Of a stretch of 44,084 nucleotides of DNA, positions 12,906-19,192 are shown one piece after another (within the stretch, counting starts at the first letter, position 1; the number at the start of each line of letters is the position of its first letter). The DNA is from Rhodothermales bacterium. GTDB taxonomy: Bacteria > Bacteroidota > Rhodothermia > Rhodothermales > VXPQ01. The DNA lies in assembly GCA_022821845.1 (NCBI GenBank), contig JAJECT010000031.1:1-44084 (forward strand), in the 5' to 3' direction. The position numbers and the translations under genes are program-made. The notes beneath the pieces are model-generated. The model saw nothing but the letters and a program-made list of their open reading frames with translations, did not search any database and was not told where the DNA came from.

Positions 12906-14174
12906 ATGATTTTTTCGTTAAAATCAGCAGAAAACAGCGCGGATGCGCGGCGCAGCGGGCGCCTGGGCCTGTTTGCGGCGGCGTTTTGCGTGGCGTGCGC
13001 ATTGCCTGCCTGCTCTACGCTCCGCATGGCGCCGGGGGCCGCCATGCAGGCGGTCTGGCCGGTGGAAGGGGGGAACGGGTTTCGGTCCAACGCCGCGCCG
13101 GATTCGCTCCCGCCGCCCTTGCGACTGCGCTGGAAGTTCAACGCGCAAGCGGGTTTCGGGCCTGTTTCTCCCCTCGTGCTGGGCGAGGCCGCGCTTGTAG
13201 CCACCCGAAAGGGGGAGGTGCACGCCATCGATCTGGAATCGGGCAAGCGCGTCGGGCGCGATGCGTTCGGCGTTTCGATCGAGGGGACGCCGGCCTATGC
13301 GGACGGCCTTTTTCTGGCGCCGGTAGCCTGGGGAGGCCGGGCGGTGCATGCAAGGGATCTGGCAAGCGGCGGGCGGGCATGGCGGGCGGGCGATATCCCG
13401 GTCAGTTCCGGGCTGGCGCTATGGGGCGATTTCGTGCTGGCGGGGGATGTGGAGGGGTATGTCCGGGCCTGGCGGCTGGAGGACGGGGAAGAAGCCTGGT
13501 CTGTGCAACTGGACGACCGGGCAGGCATTTATTCGACGCCTGCGGTGATCGGGGACCTGCTGGTGGCGGCGAACGACCGGGGCAGGGTGGCGGCGCTACA
13601 TGCCCGGGACGGCGCCCTTGCATGGTCGGCGGAGGCGGGCGCGCCTGTGCAGGTTTCCCTCGCCGCTACGGAGGACCGCGTGTTTGTCGCCACGACGCGG
13701 GGCGGCGTACGGGCGTTCGATGCGCGCAGCGGCGTTTTGCAGTGGGCGTACGACGTCCCGAAAGAACGCGATGCGGCGGGCGGCGCCGAGGACGCTTTTG
13801 GCGCGACGGTCGCTTCGCAGATATATCTTACGGCGCCGGCGGCGGGGGCGCGCGACCTGGTGTTTGGCGCCTCCGACGGGACGCTGCGGTCCCTGAACGC
13901 GGCGGACGGATCCCTCAACTGGGTTGCGGAGGCTTCCGACGCGGTGTCGGCTCCGCCCCTGCTCGTCGCGGAAACCGTGTATGCGGGGACCATGGGCGCC
14001 ATGCTGAAAGCCTTCGACCGCCGCGACGGCCGCCTGCTGTGGGAGACGGCGCTGGAAGGCCGCGTGAAATCCGCTTTTGCGCTCAAGGAGTCGTTGCTCA
14101 TCGTGCTGGCGGAGCCGCGCCACGTGTACGCCTACGAACCGGAATTACAGGACCATAAAGCGAATGATGAATAA
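12906..14174 (+). CDS. BamB/PQQ-like beta-propeller lipoprotein
   Basis: The 422-residue protein starts with an export signal ending in the lipobox LPAC (Cys 36), so it should be a lipoprotein. The rest consists of PQQ-type propeller blades with the recurring pattern of a value read, a DG or DL turn and a Trp (for example VHAIDLESGKRV, WRLEDGEEAWSVQLD, ALHARDGALAWSAE, SLNAADGSLNWVAE, AFDRRDGRLLWETA). The fold is that of BamB, a scaffold of the outer-membrane assembly machine, and of quinoprotein-like proteins; nothing here shows PQQ binding or enzymatic activity. It lies directly after a barrel protein and overlaps the next gene, which fits an envelope role. Confidence 0.82.
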   Translation: MIFSLKSAENSADARRSGRLGLFAAAFCVACALPACSTLRMAPGAAMQAVWPVEGGNGFRSNAAPDSLPPPLRLRWKFNAQAGFGPVSPLVLGEAALVATRKGEVHAIDLESGKRVGRDAFGVSIEGTPAYADGLFLAPVAWGGRAVHARDLASGGRAWRAGDIPVSSGLALWGDFVLAGDVEGYVRAWRLEDGEEAWSVQLDDRAGIYSTPAVIGDLLVAANDRGRVAALHARDGALAWSAEAGAPVQVSLAATEDRVFVATTRGGVRAFDARSGVLQWAYDVPKERDAAGGAEDAFGATVASQIYLTAPAAGARDLVFGASDGTLRSLNAADGSLNWVAEASDAVSAPPLLVAETVYAGTMGAMLKAFDRRDGRLLWETALEGRVKSAFALKESLLIVLAEPRHVYAYEPELQDHKANDE

Positions 14175-14994
14175 GATGAATAAATCGAGAAGAATAGCGC
14201 TTCTGCGGCGGGTGCTTTGCGGCGTCTTGTGGCTGCTTGGCGCCGGGCTGCTTCCGGCGCGGGCGCAAGAGGCGGACCCTGCGGACGGTCCGGTCTACGT
14301 GCACATCGACACCAATTTCCCCGAAGCGCTGGTGTTCGCGGACAGCGCGCTGGTGGGCGGCGCGGCGCGCGCGATGCTGGCCGTGCCCGCCGGGAGTCGC
14401 TCGATTCGCCTTACCGCGCCGCGCCCGGACGCCTGGTCCATCGCTCCGATTATTCGCCCGCTGAATGCGGCGGCGGGCGATACGGTCCGCGTGGTCATGC
14501 ATTTCCCGTATCATTACCGGATCGAGTCTGAGCCGTTCGGGGCGGAGGTGTTCCTGGAGCGATCCGGCGAACGCCTCGCCTTGGGCGCGACGCCGTTGCT
14601 GCACCGGGCGGCAGCGCCGCTGGAAGGGCGTATTCTGGTTCGGCGAAACGGGTATGTTTCCCGGTCCGTGCAGCCGGGAAAAGCCGTATGGAATCGTCAT
14701 GTCGTACGCCTGGAGCCGATTAGTCCCCGCGATCCTGCGGCGGCGCTTCATGCGAACCCGCCCCGCAGGCGTCGCGCCTGGATCGACTACGCGGCGCTGG
14801 GCGCGGCGCTGGCGGCGGGCGCCGTGGCGGTCCGCTACAAATTCAAGGCCGACGACCTGGCGGACGAGTACGAGCGGACCCGAAATCCGGCGCTGACTTC
14901 GCGCATCGAAACGCACGATTTTCGCGCTGCGGCGGCGTTCGGGGTCATGCAGGGGGGGATCGGTATTTTTGCAATCCGGTTGGCGTTGCGGTAG
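14164..14994 (+). CDS. PEGA-domain-like exported protein
   Basis: The 276-residue protein overlaps the end of the BamB-like gene (two ATGs at 14164 and 14167; an ATG at 14176 just after the stop is another option). After a signal peptide (ending LLPARAQ) comes VYVHIDTNFPEALVFADSA and RIESEPFGAEVFLERSGER, two repeats with the 'x-x-P-x-G-A-x-V-x' look of PEGA domains, small beta domains found in surface proteins. A helical segment AALGAALAAGAVAVRYKFK near residue 220 and a C-terminal VMQGGIGIFAIRLALR suggest membrane association. The role is unknown; the overlap implies co-expression with the propeller lipoprotein. Confidence 0.6.
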   Translation: MMNKMNKSRRIALLRRVLCGVLWLLGAGLLPARAQEADPADGPVYVHIDTNFPEALVFADSALVGGAARAMLAVPAGSRSIRLTAPRPDAWSIAPIIRPLNAAAGDTVRVVMHFPYHYRIESEPFGAEVFLERSGERLALGATPLLHRAAAPLEGRILVRRNGYVSRSVQPGKAVWNRHVVRLEPISPRDPAAALHANPPRRRRAWIDYAALGAALAAGAVAVRYKFKADDLADEYERTRNPALTSRIETHDFRAAAAFGVMQGGIGIFAIRLALR

Positions 14995-15030: not shown

Positions 15031-15063
15031 TTTGGAAATGTGGTTTATTGATTCGTATCTTTG
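15031..15063 (+). promoter_or_regulatory. Bacteroidota-type promoter upstream of the Calx-beta gene
   Basis: TTTG (15031-15034) and TATCTTTG (15056-15063) match the -33 TTTG and -7 TAnnTTTG elements of the Bacteroidota housekeeping promoter, with 21 bases between them. It lies just after the putative terminator and about 130 bases before the start codon at 15196. Function is inferred from the match. Confidence 0.55.
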
Positions 15064-15195: not shown

Positions 15196-18100
15196 ATGAA
15201 AAACCGAACCTTTCTCGCGGCGTCCGTCGCGCGTATCGCCTCCTTGATTTCTTCCCCGGGGGGGGGGGGGCTACTCTGCCATTTGCGTTGCGCCGGCGTA
15301 GCGATTCAGGCTTCTGCGCAAAAGCCCGTGGCTACTTTCGCCACCGCCTCCTCTTCCGTCAACGAAGACGGGGGTACGGTTACCTTAACCGTGAACCTGA
15401 CTTCGGCTGTCGATGAGGATGGGGAGATCGGGGTCAGTTATGCGGTGGGCAGCGATAGCGACACTTCGTCGCCCGCAGACTATACCGATCCCAATTCCGG
15501 CTTCGTAAGCTTGTCCACGGTCGCGACCTCGGTCAATATAACCATTACGATTGAGGACGACGGGTTACCGGAGGACGACGAGACGCTGCTTGTGACCCTT
15601 GAAGATGGCGGGTATTACGATGCGGGCAGCGCGAAGACGCACACGATTAAGATCATCGACAACGACGATCCCGCCGTTTCCTTTGTTGAAGTAGACGCCT
15701 CTTTTGCTTCTGACGCGGAGGAAGACGCAGGGTTTGTTTATGTAACCGTGCAGCTAAATAACGCGCACCAGGGATCCGATCTTGACATCGGCTATACCGT
15801 GACCGGTACGGCGACCTTCGACGCCGACGCGGACGGTTTCGCGGGAAGCGGGGATTTCGGCATTACGGGGCTCACGAATGTCAATGACGCGGAAGTGATG
15901 GTTTCTTCCTTTACGCAATTCGGCTACATAGATGTTGCTATTAACGACGACGGCACGGCGGAAGAGGACGAGACGGTGATTTTGACGCTTGTGGATGGCG
16001 ACGGATACACGGTAGTCAGCGACAGCAGCGTCTTCACGATAACGATAAAAGCCGACGACAACGACGAGGGCGCCGTCGTCCAAAAGCCGACCATAACTAT
16101 TGCGGGTAACGCGTCTACTTTCGAAGAAGGGGATAGGCTTACTTTTGACGTTAGCTCCGACGAGGCGGTCACCGCGGCTCTGGACGTTACGTTGACGGTC
16201 TCGGACGCTGCCGGAAGCGATTTCCTGGATTCCGCCAACGAGGGGGACCAGACGGTGACGATCAAGGTAGATTCAACCACCACCAGGTTTTACTTGCCGA
16301 CGCGGGTGAACGACGTCTATGACGTGCCCGGCACGATTACGGTAGCGTTGGCGTCAGGCGCCGGCTACGATGTGGGCACGCCGGCCTCGGTTTCTGCGGA
16401 TGGAACAGATCCGGAGGGGCCGTTTGTTTCTTTCGCCTCTGCTTCGAGTACTATTGAGGAAGACGCCAGGCAACTGATGGGCACTATTTACGAGCCCGTC
16501 TGGCATGATTTCGTCGTGAATATCGATCCCTCGTCCCCGGCCTTAGTGATATTATTTAGCGTAATGAAAGACGGCACTACGGCGGACGCAGGTGATTATC
16601 AGGTGGATTTTGGACCCGGGATTTCGGTGTTTTCAAATTCGATAGACCGCGGCGTGCAGATGTTCACGGCCCAAGTATCTGCTTACGTGCCGGACTTGTT
16701 CAAAAATGTGGAAGTTGATGCGGAAGAGGATGAAACGGTGATTTTTGAAATTGTGGATGGCCCGGGGTACAGGCCGGGCACACAGAACACCCACACGGTC
16801 ACGATTGAGGACAACGAGGTAACTGCTTCTTTTGCTTCCGCATCTACTGTCGTAGAGGAAGACGCCGGGACGGTTGAGGTAACCGTGAATCTGGATAAGG
16901 AGCCTGCGGCGCCGATCCAGATTATTTACGAGGTGACCCGTGGCGAGGGTGTGGATGCAGGCGACTATGTGCTCCTCAATGTTCTCGAGCAAGGGATTAT
17001 TACGGGCGTTACAAAAGATGTGGTCACAATACCTGTCGAGATCTTCGACGATATCAAGTCGGAACCCGACGAAACATTGACGCTGACGCTTCTTGGAGGC
17101 GTGAAGGAAGAACTGGAAGAAGGCGAAGTGCCTTACAATAACCATCTGGGCGACATCGTCGAGCACACCATCACGATCCGGGCCAGCGACGGCCATACAT
17201 CAACGGTTACGGCGCCCGTGGCGTCCTTCGCCTCGGCTTCGGCGACCGCGGCGGAGAGCGCCGGGACGCAGAACGTGGCGATCAACCTGAGCCCTGTGCC
17301 GTCCGCCGCGACCACGCTGAATTATACGTTGTCCGGCACGGCGACGCGGGGCGCGGACTATACGATCAGCGGCGTTACGAGCAACAACGGCACGGTGAAC
17401 GTCAACGGCGGCGACGCTTCCGTCAACATACCTGTCGTCATCACGGACGACAGCGCAGACGAACCGAATGAGACGGTAATTCTTACGCTCGCGAGCGGAA
17501 CGGGCTATGACGTGGGAAGCACTACCGCGTACACGCTGACCATTACGGACAATGACGACGCGGCGCCGCCTGCGACCGATACGCCGCCTGCGACCACCGC
17601 GGCGAGCGTAACGCTCTCGGCGTCTCCGAACCCTGTGGCCGAGGGGGATTCGGTAATGATTACGGTTACCCCTTCGCAGCTGCTCTCCAGCGACGTAACG
17701 GTTCCGCTGCTCTTGACGGCGGGTACGGCGGAAGCGGAGGATTACAGCGCGCTGGCTTCTATCGTCATCGAAGGCAACGAGCCAAACGGCACAGGCGTGA
17801 TCCGGGCCAGGAAGGACGTGGATATGGACGACGAGACGTTTACCGTGTCGCTGGGCACGTTGCCGTCGAGCGTCGTCGCGGGAACGCCTGCGTCCGTCGA
17901 GATCACGATTATGGATGTGGGAACTGTTTCCGCCGAGGCAGACGGGCAGGAACTCCCCGATGCGTTTGCGCTGGAGCAGAATTATCCGAACCCGTTCAAT
18001 CCGTCCACGGCCATCGAATACGCGCTTCCCGAGGCCGCCCACGTGGTTATCGAAGTGTTCGACGCCACGGGTCGGAGCGCGGGCGTGCTTGTAGACGGCG

Positions 18101-18222
18101 TACGCCCTGCGGGACGGCACAGCGCGCACTTCGAAGCGGGCAGCCTGCCTTCGGGCCTGTATGTGTACCGCATGCACGCGGGCGGGCAAACCATGGTCCG
18201 GAAAATGACCCTCGTTCGGTAA
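15196..18222 (+). CDS. Large secreted Calx-beta repeat protein with C-terminal sorting domain
   Basis: The 1008-residue protein has an N-terminal export signal (cleavage probably after QASA) and then about seven Calx-beta-like repeats. Most open with SFASAS-x-x-x-EE and close with TITDNDD or TIEDNE, with an acidic DDGLPEDDETLLVTL type core that should bind calcium. The end, from about residue 915, is EQNYPNPFNPSTAIEYALP followed by a small beta domain and LPSGLYVYRMHAGG, the C-terminal signal of the type IX-like sorting route in Bacteroidota. It should therefore be released or anchored at the cell surface as an adhesin or matrix protein. A run of 13 G (15258-15270) within the signal-peptide coding part makes its reading frame prone to slippage. 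A promoter lies at 15031-15063. Confidence 0.88.
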   Translation: MKNRTFLAASVARIASLISSPGGGGLLCHLRCAGVAIQASAQKPVATFATASSSVNEDGGTVTLTVNLTSAVDEDGEIGVSYAVGSDSDTSSPADYTDPNSGFVSLSTVATSVNITITIEDDGLPEDDETLLVTLEDGGYYDAGSAKTHTIKIIDNDDPAVSFVEVDASFASDAEEDAGFVYVTVQLNNAHQGSDLDIGYTVTGTATFDADADGFAGSGDFGITGLTNVNDAEVMVSSFTQFGYIDVAINDDGTAEEDETVILTLVDGDGYTVVSDSSVFTITIKADDNDEGAVVQKPTITIAGNASTFEEGDRLTFDVSSDEAVTAALDVTLTVSDAAGSDFLDSANEGDQTVTIKVDSTTTRFYLPTRVNDVYDVPGTITVALASGAGYDVGTPASVSADGTDPEGPFVSFASASSTIEEDARQLMGTIYEPVWHDFVVNIDPSSPALVILFSVMKDGTTADAGDYQVDFGPGISVFSNSIDRGVQMFTAQVSAYVPDLFKNVEVDAEEDETVIFEIVDGPGYRPGTQNTHTVTIEDNEVTASFASASTVVEEDAGTVEVTVNLDKEPAAPIQIIYEVTRGEGVDAGDYVLLNVLEQGIITGVTKDVVTIPVEIFDDIKSEPDETLTLTLLGGVKEELEEGEVPYNNHLGDIVEHTITIRASDGHTSTVTAPVASFASASATAAESAGTQNVAINLSPVPSAATTLNYTLSGTATRGADYTISGVTSNNGTVNVNGGDASVNIPVVITDDSADEPNETVILTLASGTGYDVGSTTAYTLTITDNDDAAPPATDTPPATTAASVTLSASPNPVAEGDSVMITVTPSQLLSSDVTVPLLLTAGTAEAEDYSALASIVIEGNEPNGTGVIRARKDVDMDDETFTVSLGTLPSSVVAGTPASVEITIMDVGTVSAEADGQELPDAFALEQNYPNPFNPSTAIEYALPEAAHVVIEVFDATGRSAGVLVDGVRPAGRHSAHFEAGSLPSGLYVYRMHAGGQTMVRKMTLVR
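15258..15270 (+). repeat. G13 homopolymer within the signal-peptide region of the Calx-beta gene
   Basis: Thirteen consecutive G are read as Pro-Gly-Gly-Gly-Gly. With 12 G the frame reaches a TAG about 10 codons later; with 14 G it reaches a TGA about 50 codons later. Only 13 (or 13 plus or minus 3) gives the full protein. Confidence 0.9.
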
Positions 18223-18277: not shown

Positions 18278-19192
18278 TCACGTTACCGCAAAGCGGCGGG
18301 CGACGAGCATGGAGAGGGGGAGGAGGGCCAGCGTAAGGAGGCCTGCGGGCCAGGCGGCGAATCCGGCGGTTAGCGTAGCGTTAAGGGGGATCAAGGCCAG
18401 CACCCCCGCCTGAACGGCCCGTCGGATGCGCTTGGGAGAGGGGTCGGCGGCGGCCCGCCGAAACGAAGGCGCTGTGAGAAAGGCGAACAGGGCGAGAAAA
18501 GGCAGCGCGTCCAGCGTCCGGTAGTCCGCCCGAAAGCCGAGGGCCGCGAGCGCCGCGCATACGCCTCCCGTAACGCATAGCGCAAACAGCATGGCGCGCC
18601 GCTCGCCCCCATGCACTTCGCCCCGACTCACAATAACGATGGCCCCGACGTAGGCGATGGGAATCGCCGCAAGAAACCATAAATCTCCTATCGCCCCGGG
18701 AACGGCGCTTGCGCCCAGCAGCAAATTTCCCCCGCGGCACAGTCCCACTGAAAGGGGCCCCGCTGTGTCGTGTTGCTTGGTTGCGGCGTCGTACCCGAGG
18801 GCGCAGCATGCGATGGCCGCCGCCACGCCGAAGGACCAGAGCCCGACGCAGGCGGCGGCCCCCATGCCCCCCGCAAGCAAAACGCTTCCAAAGACGGCCG
18901 CTTGCGTTTTGGTAACGCGGCCGCTTGGGATGGGCCGCTCCGGGCGTTCTGCGGCGTCGAGTTCGGCGTCGAATACGTCGTTGAAGACCACGCCGCCCGC
19001 GTACAATCCCGCCGTTGCGGCGAGGAGCCACCCGAGGTCGCCAGGGAGGGCAGATTGCCCGCCAGAGAGCAGGTCCGCGAGGGCGCCCGCCGCGGCGAAC
19101 CCCGCCAGAATATCGGCGAATGCGGTAACGACATTGGCGGGGCGGGCGAGTTCCAGAAAGGCGCGCATGCGTTGGGGGACGGTTCTGGTCAT
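18278..19192 (-). CDS. UbiA-family prenyltransferase (possibly EboC-like)
   Basis: The 304-residue integral membrane protein has about eight or nine hydrophobic segments and the UbiA first Asp-rich motif NDVFDAELDAAERPERPIPSG region (N71, D72, D75, D79), which binds prenyl diphosphate through Mg2+. The second region YDAATKQHDTAGPLSVGLCR takes the place of the second Asp motif. Family members attach prenyl chains to quinone, haem, chlorophyll or other acceptors. The start LARPANVVTAFADILAGFAA is reminiscent of the EboC branch, but the other ebo genes are not in the window, so I leave the substrate open. It is the last gene of a - strand run behind the TonB-type receptor, 124 bases after it. 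Confidence 0.85.
   Translation of the reverse strand: MTRTVPQRMRAFLELARPANVVTAFADILAGFAAAGALADLLSGGQSALPGDLGWLLAATAGLYAGGVVFNDVFDAELDAAERPERPIPSGRVTKTQAAVFGSVLLAGGMGAAACVGLWSFGVAAAIACCALGYDAATKQHDTAGPLSVGLCRGGNLLLGASAVPGAIGDLWFLAAIPIAYVGAIVIVSRGEVHGGERRAMLFALCVTGGVCAALAALGFRADYRTLDALPFLALFAFLTAPSFRRAAADPSPKRIRRAVQAGVLALIPLNATLTAGFAAWPAGLLTLALLPLSMLVARRFAVT

Follow-up and report, generated by a model that had tools for sequence, protein, structure and literature searches.

The window, that is, the whole 44,084-nt stretch of Rhodothermales DNA that was analyzed, carries a gene for a predicted surface protein in which a homopolymeric run of guanines lies within the region coding for the N-terminal export sequence. 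The features at this locus are as follows.

14155..14994, + strand: upstream neighbor without a Pfam match, kept in all six genomes of the genus and marking the syntenic slot
15031..15063, + strand: promoter-like TTTG-N21-TATCTTTG pair resembling the Bacteroidota-type consensus, recognized by eye, with TATCTTTG kept in the sister locus L042
15196..18222, + strand: gene for a 1008-aa Calx-beta surface protein with a T9SS type A sorting tail, ON at G13 (open reading frame from the ATG at 15196, Pfam, TIGR04183)
15196..15318, + strand: N-terminal export region (about 41 aa) holding the tract, with likely cleavage between ASA and Q (from the sequence; 94 to 98% DNA identity to the sister outside the tract)
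15258..15270, + strand: G13 homopolymeric tract, the proposed slipped-strand switch (from the sequence, the frames, and G13 also in the sister genome G001)
15271..15275, + strand: CTACT, an instance of the lineage-specific CTAYT flank seen 3' of long G tracts (flank comparison)
15319..15666, + strand: first Calx-beta domain, residues 42 to 157 (Pfam PF03160)
17983..18207, + strand: T9SS type A C-terminal sorting domain, residues 930 to 1004 (TIGR04183, PF18962)
18278..19192, - strand: downstream neighbor, a UbiA-family prenyltransferase on the other side of the slot

The Calx-beta domain (PF03160) is recovered in two stretches of the protein (1.3e-18), and the C-terminal sorting domain scores above the cut-offs of both of its models (TIGR04183, 29.2 bits against a cut-off of 23; PF18962, 27.5 against 27). 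The check for the T9SS machinery was made with SprA, a core protein of the translocon, which is encoded in the same genome (SprA_N, 5.5e-89). The sorting domain and the presence of SprA are shared with the T9SS type A cargo of Bacteroidota, from which the window protein differs in having a slippery tract within its signal region. Judging from this architecture, the combination of Calx-beta and T9SS tail is that of a predicted exported surface protein and nothing beyond; an adhesin role for it is plausible. Signal-peptide traits, as read from the sequence, include the MKNRT... start and the ASA-Q junction, while the hydrophobic core is weak here but strong in the sister species: the stretch after the tract is LLCHLRCAGVAI here, with a best 11-residue mean in the export region of 1.65, and LLCLLLCAGVAI in the sister, with 2.92. 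Within 15271-15318, His and Arg here replace two Leu of the sister's signal-peptide core. This swap may weaken export of the protein, which is hence uncertain in the species under study. Upstream of the gene, the TTTG-N21-TATCTTTG pair at 15031-15063 resembles, by eye, the Bacteroidota promoter consensus, and the sister species shares the TATCTTTG box together with the sequence around it. A promoter of the phylum's type had been proposed upstream of the gene; the pair is there, with a match that is consensus-like only.

The tract at 15258-15270 on the forward strand consists of exactly 13 G, is read in frame as four glycines, and is the sole run of G or C of length 8 or more in the window; a search for repeats around it found none. 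The protein begins MKNRTFLAASVARIASLISSP-GGGG-LLCHLRCAGVAIQASAQ..., with translation running in frame across the tract, which separates two hydrophobic segments in the export region and stands ahead of the likely ASA-Q cleavage. In the three frames 3' of the tract, 983, 9, and 47 codons are open. Hence, tracts of G10, G13, and G16 yield the full protein (1008 aa at G13), whereas G12 ends it prematurely at about 34 aa and G14 at about 73 aa; a change of a single unit shifts the frame of an otherwise intact gene. The initial annotation had placed a G13 in the signal-peptide region of a 1008-residue Calx-beta protein and had held that gain or loss of one G ends translation early, and both statements are borne out by the exact count, the open reading frame, the Pfam match, and these frame lengths.

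The run lengths of the whole genome, a draft assembly of 2.82 Mb, were obtained from pattern searches and fetched stretches. Long poly-G at contig ends (L013:1-133, the start of contig C21 in the own genome, G000; L068; L098-L100; L103) probably reflects assembly artefacts; such loci were excluded from the run counts and the flank statistics, and in the own genome this removed one stretch (C21:1-133). The exact counts of G runs are 11, 6, 10, 9, 5, and 3 for lengths 8, 9, 10, 11, 12, and 13, respectively, against estimates, made from 218 kb, of about 904 and 116 per genome for lengths 6 and 7. The counts thus drop steeply and then show a second mode at 10 to 13, pointing to a separate class of long G tracts that is maintained. 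About 27 G tracts of at least 10 are present in the own genome, with the window G13 among the three longest. Markov simulations of 2.8 Mb produced no runs of at least 13, and runs of at least 12 appeared once at order 1 and not at orders 2 and 3. In two-letter shuffles of the GC-rich window a G8 seems ordinary, but the real genome avoids such runs. The window tract exceeds both chance expectation and the background run-length distribution; it is no chance run.

Several of the other tracts lie in genes for enzymes of DNA modification. These include a type III methylase (Mod; L014) and a type I HsdM (L015), both OFF, as well as a type ISP restriction-modification (RM) enzyme (L010) and an N6/N4 methylase with HNH (L019), in both of which the gene reads the C strand. 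Two HmaB-type adenine methylases carry a G12 in the conserved DPFAGGG motif, one ON (L011:1128-1139) and the other OFF (L024:2500-2511); these paralogues thus have equal tracts in opposite states owing to a one-base difference in the flank, and the sister copy (L090) is ON with G11. Further tracts lie in or next to the genes for two Calx-beta/T9SS proteins (L018, OFF; L029, ON), a Calx-beta/cadherin protein (L009, ON), a TonB-dependent receptor with the tract upstream of the gene (L028), a UDP-GlcNAc 2-epimerase (L031, ON), a Bac_transf sugar transferase (L017) and a TRAP DctM permease (L025), each with the tract just 3' of the stop, and two exported-looking proteins not assigned to a family (L034 and L022, both ON). 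A minority of tracts have no evident gene context. These host-gene classes are those usual for phase-variable genes.

The state of a tract was called from its assembled length, and only where both start and frame were clear, such that a miscount by one could flip single calls; the overall pattern of ON and OFF is unchanged by such homopolymer miscounts. Across the own and sister genomes, the judgeable copies divide into 12 ON and 10 OFF. ON in the own genome are the window gene, L009, L011, L022, L029, L030, L031, and L034, and in the sister L084, L090, L075, and L083; OFF in the own genome are L014, L015, L016, L018, L024, and L027 (two copies), and in the sister L071, L067, and L072. Several of the OFF tracts are backed by intact open frames of 495 to 1026 codons.

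The sister genome is G001 (JAJDWX01, Rhodothermales bacterium jk18x25bins.61), from another species of the genus. The "jk18x" isolate prefix has been used for metagenome-assembled genomes from Caribbean Ircinia sponges (PMC9531527), and the genus is probably sponge associated. G001 has 33 runs of at least 10, contig-end junk included, and the own genome is similar; there are 4 in G002, none in G004 and G005, and those of G003 are mostly contig-end junk. Orthologous tracts of the two species often differ in length (12 versus 11, 11 versus 13, 11 versus 12, 13 versus 11, and 11 versus 10), and a few are equal. Among the other species, an allele of the window gene is present only in G001; the slot is empty in G003, G004, and G005 and is occupied in G002 by a different protein with a T9SS tail. 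Comparison of relatives for tract length and presence of the protein had been proposed as a check, and at the window tract it gave no length difference, the tract being G13 and ON in both species that have the gene; in a comparison of two species, both perhaps sampled in the ON state, lengths equal modulo 3 are expected. Identity to the sister is 93 to 100% in the promoter region, signal region, tract, and T9SS tail, and 77 to 84%, with many indel columns, in the exposed body. At the sequence level, such conserved ends around a divergent body are the pattern of a putative surface antigen with conserved export ends.

Taking these findings together, we propose, with a probability of about 0.82, that the G13 tract is a slip-prone ON/OFF contingency locus operating via slipped-strand mispairing, a switch strongly supported by the genome-wide and comparative evidence. 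During replication, mispairing within the tract would add or drop one G; lengths of the form 3k+1 (10, 13, and 16) would connect the ATG and export region to the 983-codon Calx-beta/T9SS body, and other lengths would yield a peptide of 34 to 73 aa. A cell lineage would thereby switch production of a T9SS-exported surface protein on and off in a reversible manner, and with about 27 tracts in the genome, cells would come to differ in which surface proteins and DNA methylases are ON and which are OFF. That slippage occurs as mutation, that it is reversible, that populations are mixed, that the protein is displayed at the surface, and that it may play a part in contact with a host or in escape from phages are what we infer from these data. 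Each of the six genomes of the genus, even those with few tracts, encodes an intact-looking MutS, and loss of mismatch repair as the cause of the many tracts was rejected on this ground. There is thus no sign of a repair defect that would raise the slippage rate, a point that counts against the switch, and the instability would have to come from tract length itself. A dispersed repeat or cassette carrying the tracts was likewise rejected, the flanks being unrelated beyond about 5 bases except in a few paralogues. A slipped-strand switch was already the interpretation of the initial annotation, and it was largely right: the second mode, the placement in surface and RM genes, the OFF state of about half of the judgeable copies, and the length differences of orthologues speak for it, while the window tract itself is G13 in both species. 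It did not mention the T9SS sorting tail, the many tracts elsewhere in the genome, or the conserved flank.

This flank lies 3' of the tract, with CTA in 12 of 42 independent loci of the two sister genomes and TA in 9 more, against a background after short G runs of about 1% for CTA and 4% for TA (binomial P of about 1e-14 for CTA). It is commoner next to the longer tracts, with CTA at 7 of 11 tracts of length 12 to 13 and 5 of 31 of length 10 to 11 (Fisher P = 0.006). As the motif was spotted in the same data used for its frequency, these P values are after the fact. On the 5' side, a G stands two bases ahead in 25 of 42 loci, and YG[AC] stands directly ahead in 18 of 42. Copies of G10-CTAYT number 6 and 8 in the two sister genomes, in both of which the reversed pattern is absent, and none was found in the other 393 of 395 genomes of the phylum; this phylum search is the cleaner test, yet the flank and the presence of long tracts as such are inseparable in it. 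Loci with the CTA, mostly CTAYT, flank are the window (15271-15275), L010, L014, L016, L018, L019, L024, L030, L067, L070, L082, L084, L088, L090, L091, and L092. Since unrelated genes carry the flank, and carry it in either coding orientation, neither codon choice nor shared gene ancestry explains it. A codon cause (GGG-CTA, i.e., Gly-Leu) was also rejected as a general explanation in that no Leu codon is used less often than CTA in the window genes (6 of 258) and in that the flank is present where the gene reads the C strand (L010 and L019). Another candidate, a lagging-strand primase start at CTA with slipping of an oligo-C primer, found no support, as GC skew near CTA-flanked tracts indicates no consistent strand. 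We know of no such oriented flank for the tracts of Campylobacter or Helicobacter. A text search of PMC2823697 for flanking sequence found nothing.

One possibility raised by the flank is that a sequence-specific process creates the tracts, maintains their length, or varies them. A dedicated factor or a replication event may recognize the G(n)-CTAYT junction, so that phase variation would be targeted rather than due to passive slippage. We regard this as rather unlikely; should the flank prove real at the level of mechanism, it would hint that homopolymers can be destabilized in a targeted way. The same flank was sought in genomes from a different family of the order (G056 and G019) and is absent there, where tracts tend to follow A-rich sequence (AAAAAT-G(n)). 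These two genomes have many G tracts of at least 10 (L106-L117 and L127-L138), often directly after AAAAAT (AAAAAT-G10-13), a distinct lineage-specific context.

It could also be that G13 codes for a stable polyglycine linker of the signal region, with selection for the ON frame holding its length constant and with a switching rate too low to be useful. In keeping with this, G13 is found in both species that have the gene, and GGG is a fairly common glycine codon here (73 of 241). Four successive GGG plus an extra G are, however, improbable by codon choice (about 0.3^4 for the codons). Moreover, long runs of G are otherwise depleted (11 of length 8 in 2.8 Mb), and the other members of this class of tracts vary in length and are frequently OFF, all of which makes a fixed linker quite improbable. 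That the tract length, or the entire second mode, is an artefact of assembly or sequencing is suggested by the poly-G junk that does exist at contig ends (C21:1-133 in G000, and contig ends in G001 and G003). Interior tracts, however, are flanked on both sides by coding sequence continuing a conserved protein, and orthologous tracts stand at the same sites in the assembly of another species; we consider such an artefact highly improbable, with exact lengths perhaps off by one. Long homopolymers can provoke transcriptional slippage, and action at the RNA level, by programmed transcriptional slippage or ribosomal frameshifting that gives mixed products from every allele, could make an out-of-frame state at about half of the judgeable loci tolerable, but a fixed frameshift relation is absent, with loci and orthologues in differing frames, nothing pointing specifically to RNA was found, and this account is scarcely credible.

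Most of what is known of large poly-G phasomes comes from the host-adapted Campylobacter, Helicobacter, and Neisseria. The poly-G/C loci of Campylobacter and Helicobacter (PMC6321876, PMC2823697) are alike in having intragenic G tracts of about 9 to 16 with ON/OFF switching by frameshift, and in comprising dozens of loci that include surface and methyltransferase genes; in H. canadensis, tracts of G9 to G14 have been described, with ranges measured in reads. The present set differs in belonging to Rhodothermales, i.e., another phylum, in its GC-rich and uncultured bearers, known from assemblies, and in the oriented CTAYT flank. Orsi et al. (PMC2831843) treat homopolymeric tracts as a general switch at the 5' end of genes and likewise describe early truncation of a surface protein through a hypermutable tract close to the start of its gene, but those tracts are mainly poly(A) or poly(T), e.g., in inlA, whereas here the tract is poly(G) in a GC-rich genome. 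Phasevarions, i.e., phase-variable RM systems, are paralleled by other tracts of the own genome that lie in enzymes of types I, III, and ISP and in methylases; the window gene itself, in contrast, encodes a surface protein. We see the window locus as an ordinary slipped-strand phase-variation locus, of which only the CTAYT flank is out of the ordinary. A search of the literature on phase variation in sponge-associated Rhodothermales found no paper, and a large phasome of a Rhodothermales genus is apparently unreported so far. The distribution of about 27 tracts over T9SS surface proteins and RM or Hma methylases suggests bet-hedging of the same kind in a symbiosis with a marine animal, where it plausibly serves host contact and defense against phages.

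The tract of L030 (contig C24 of G000, at about 3100) borders a segment of about 2.3 kb that is absent from the equivalent site of the sister (L170). Five G tracts stand directly 3' of a TGA triplet (L017:3425, L023:660, L025:3062, L032:2978, and L039:961), which is the stop codon of the preceding gene in L017 and L025 and apparently also in L023 and L039. A change in the length of a tract behind a stop codon, as in L017 and L025, cannot alter the upstream frame. The TGA-adjacent tract of L017 is kept in the sister (L080), with G11 versus G12.
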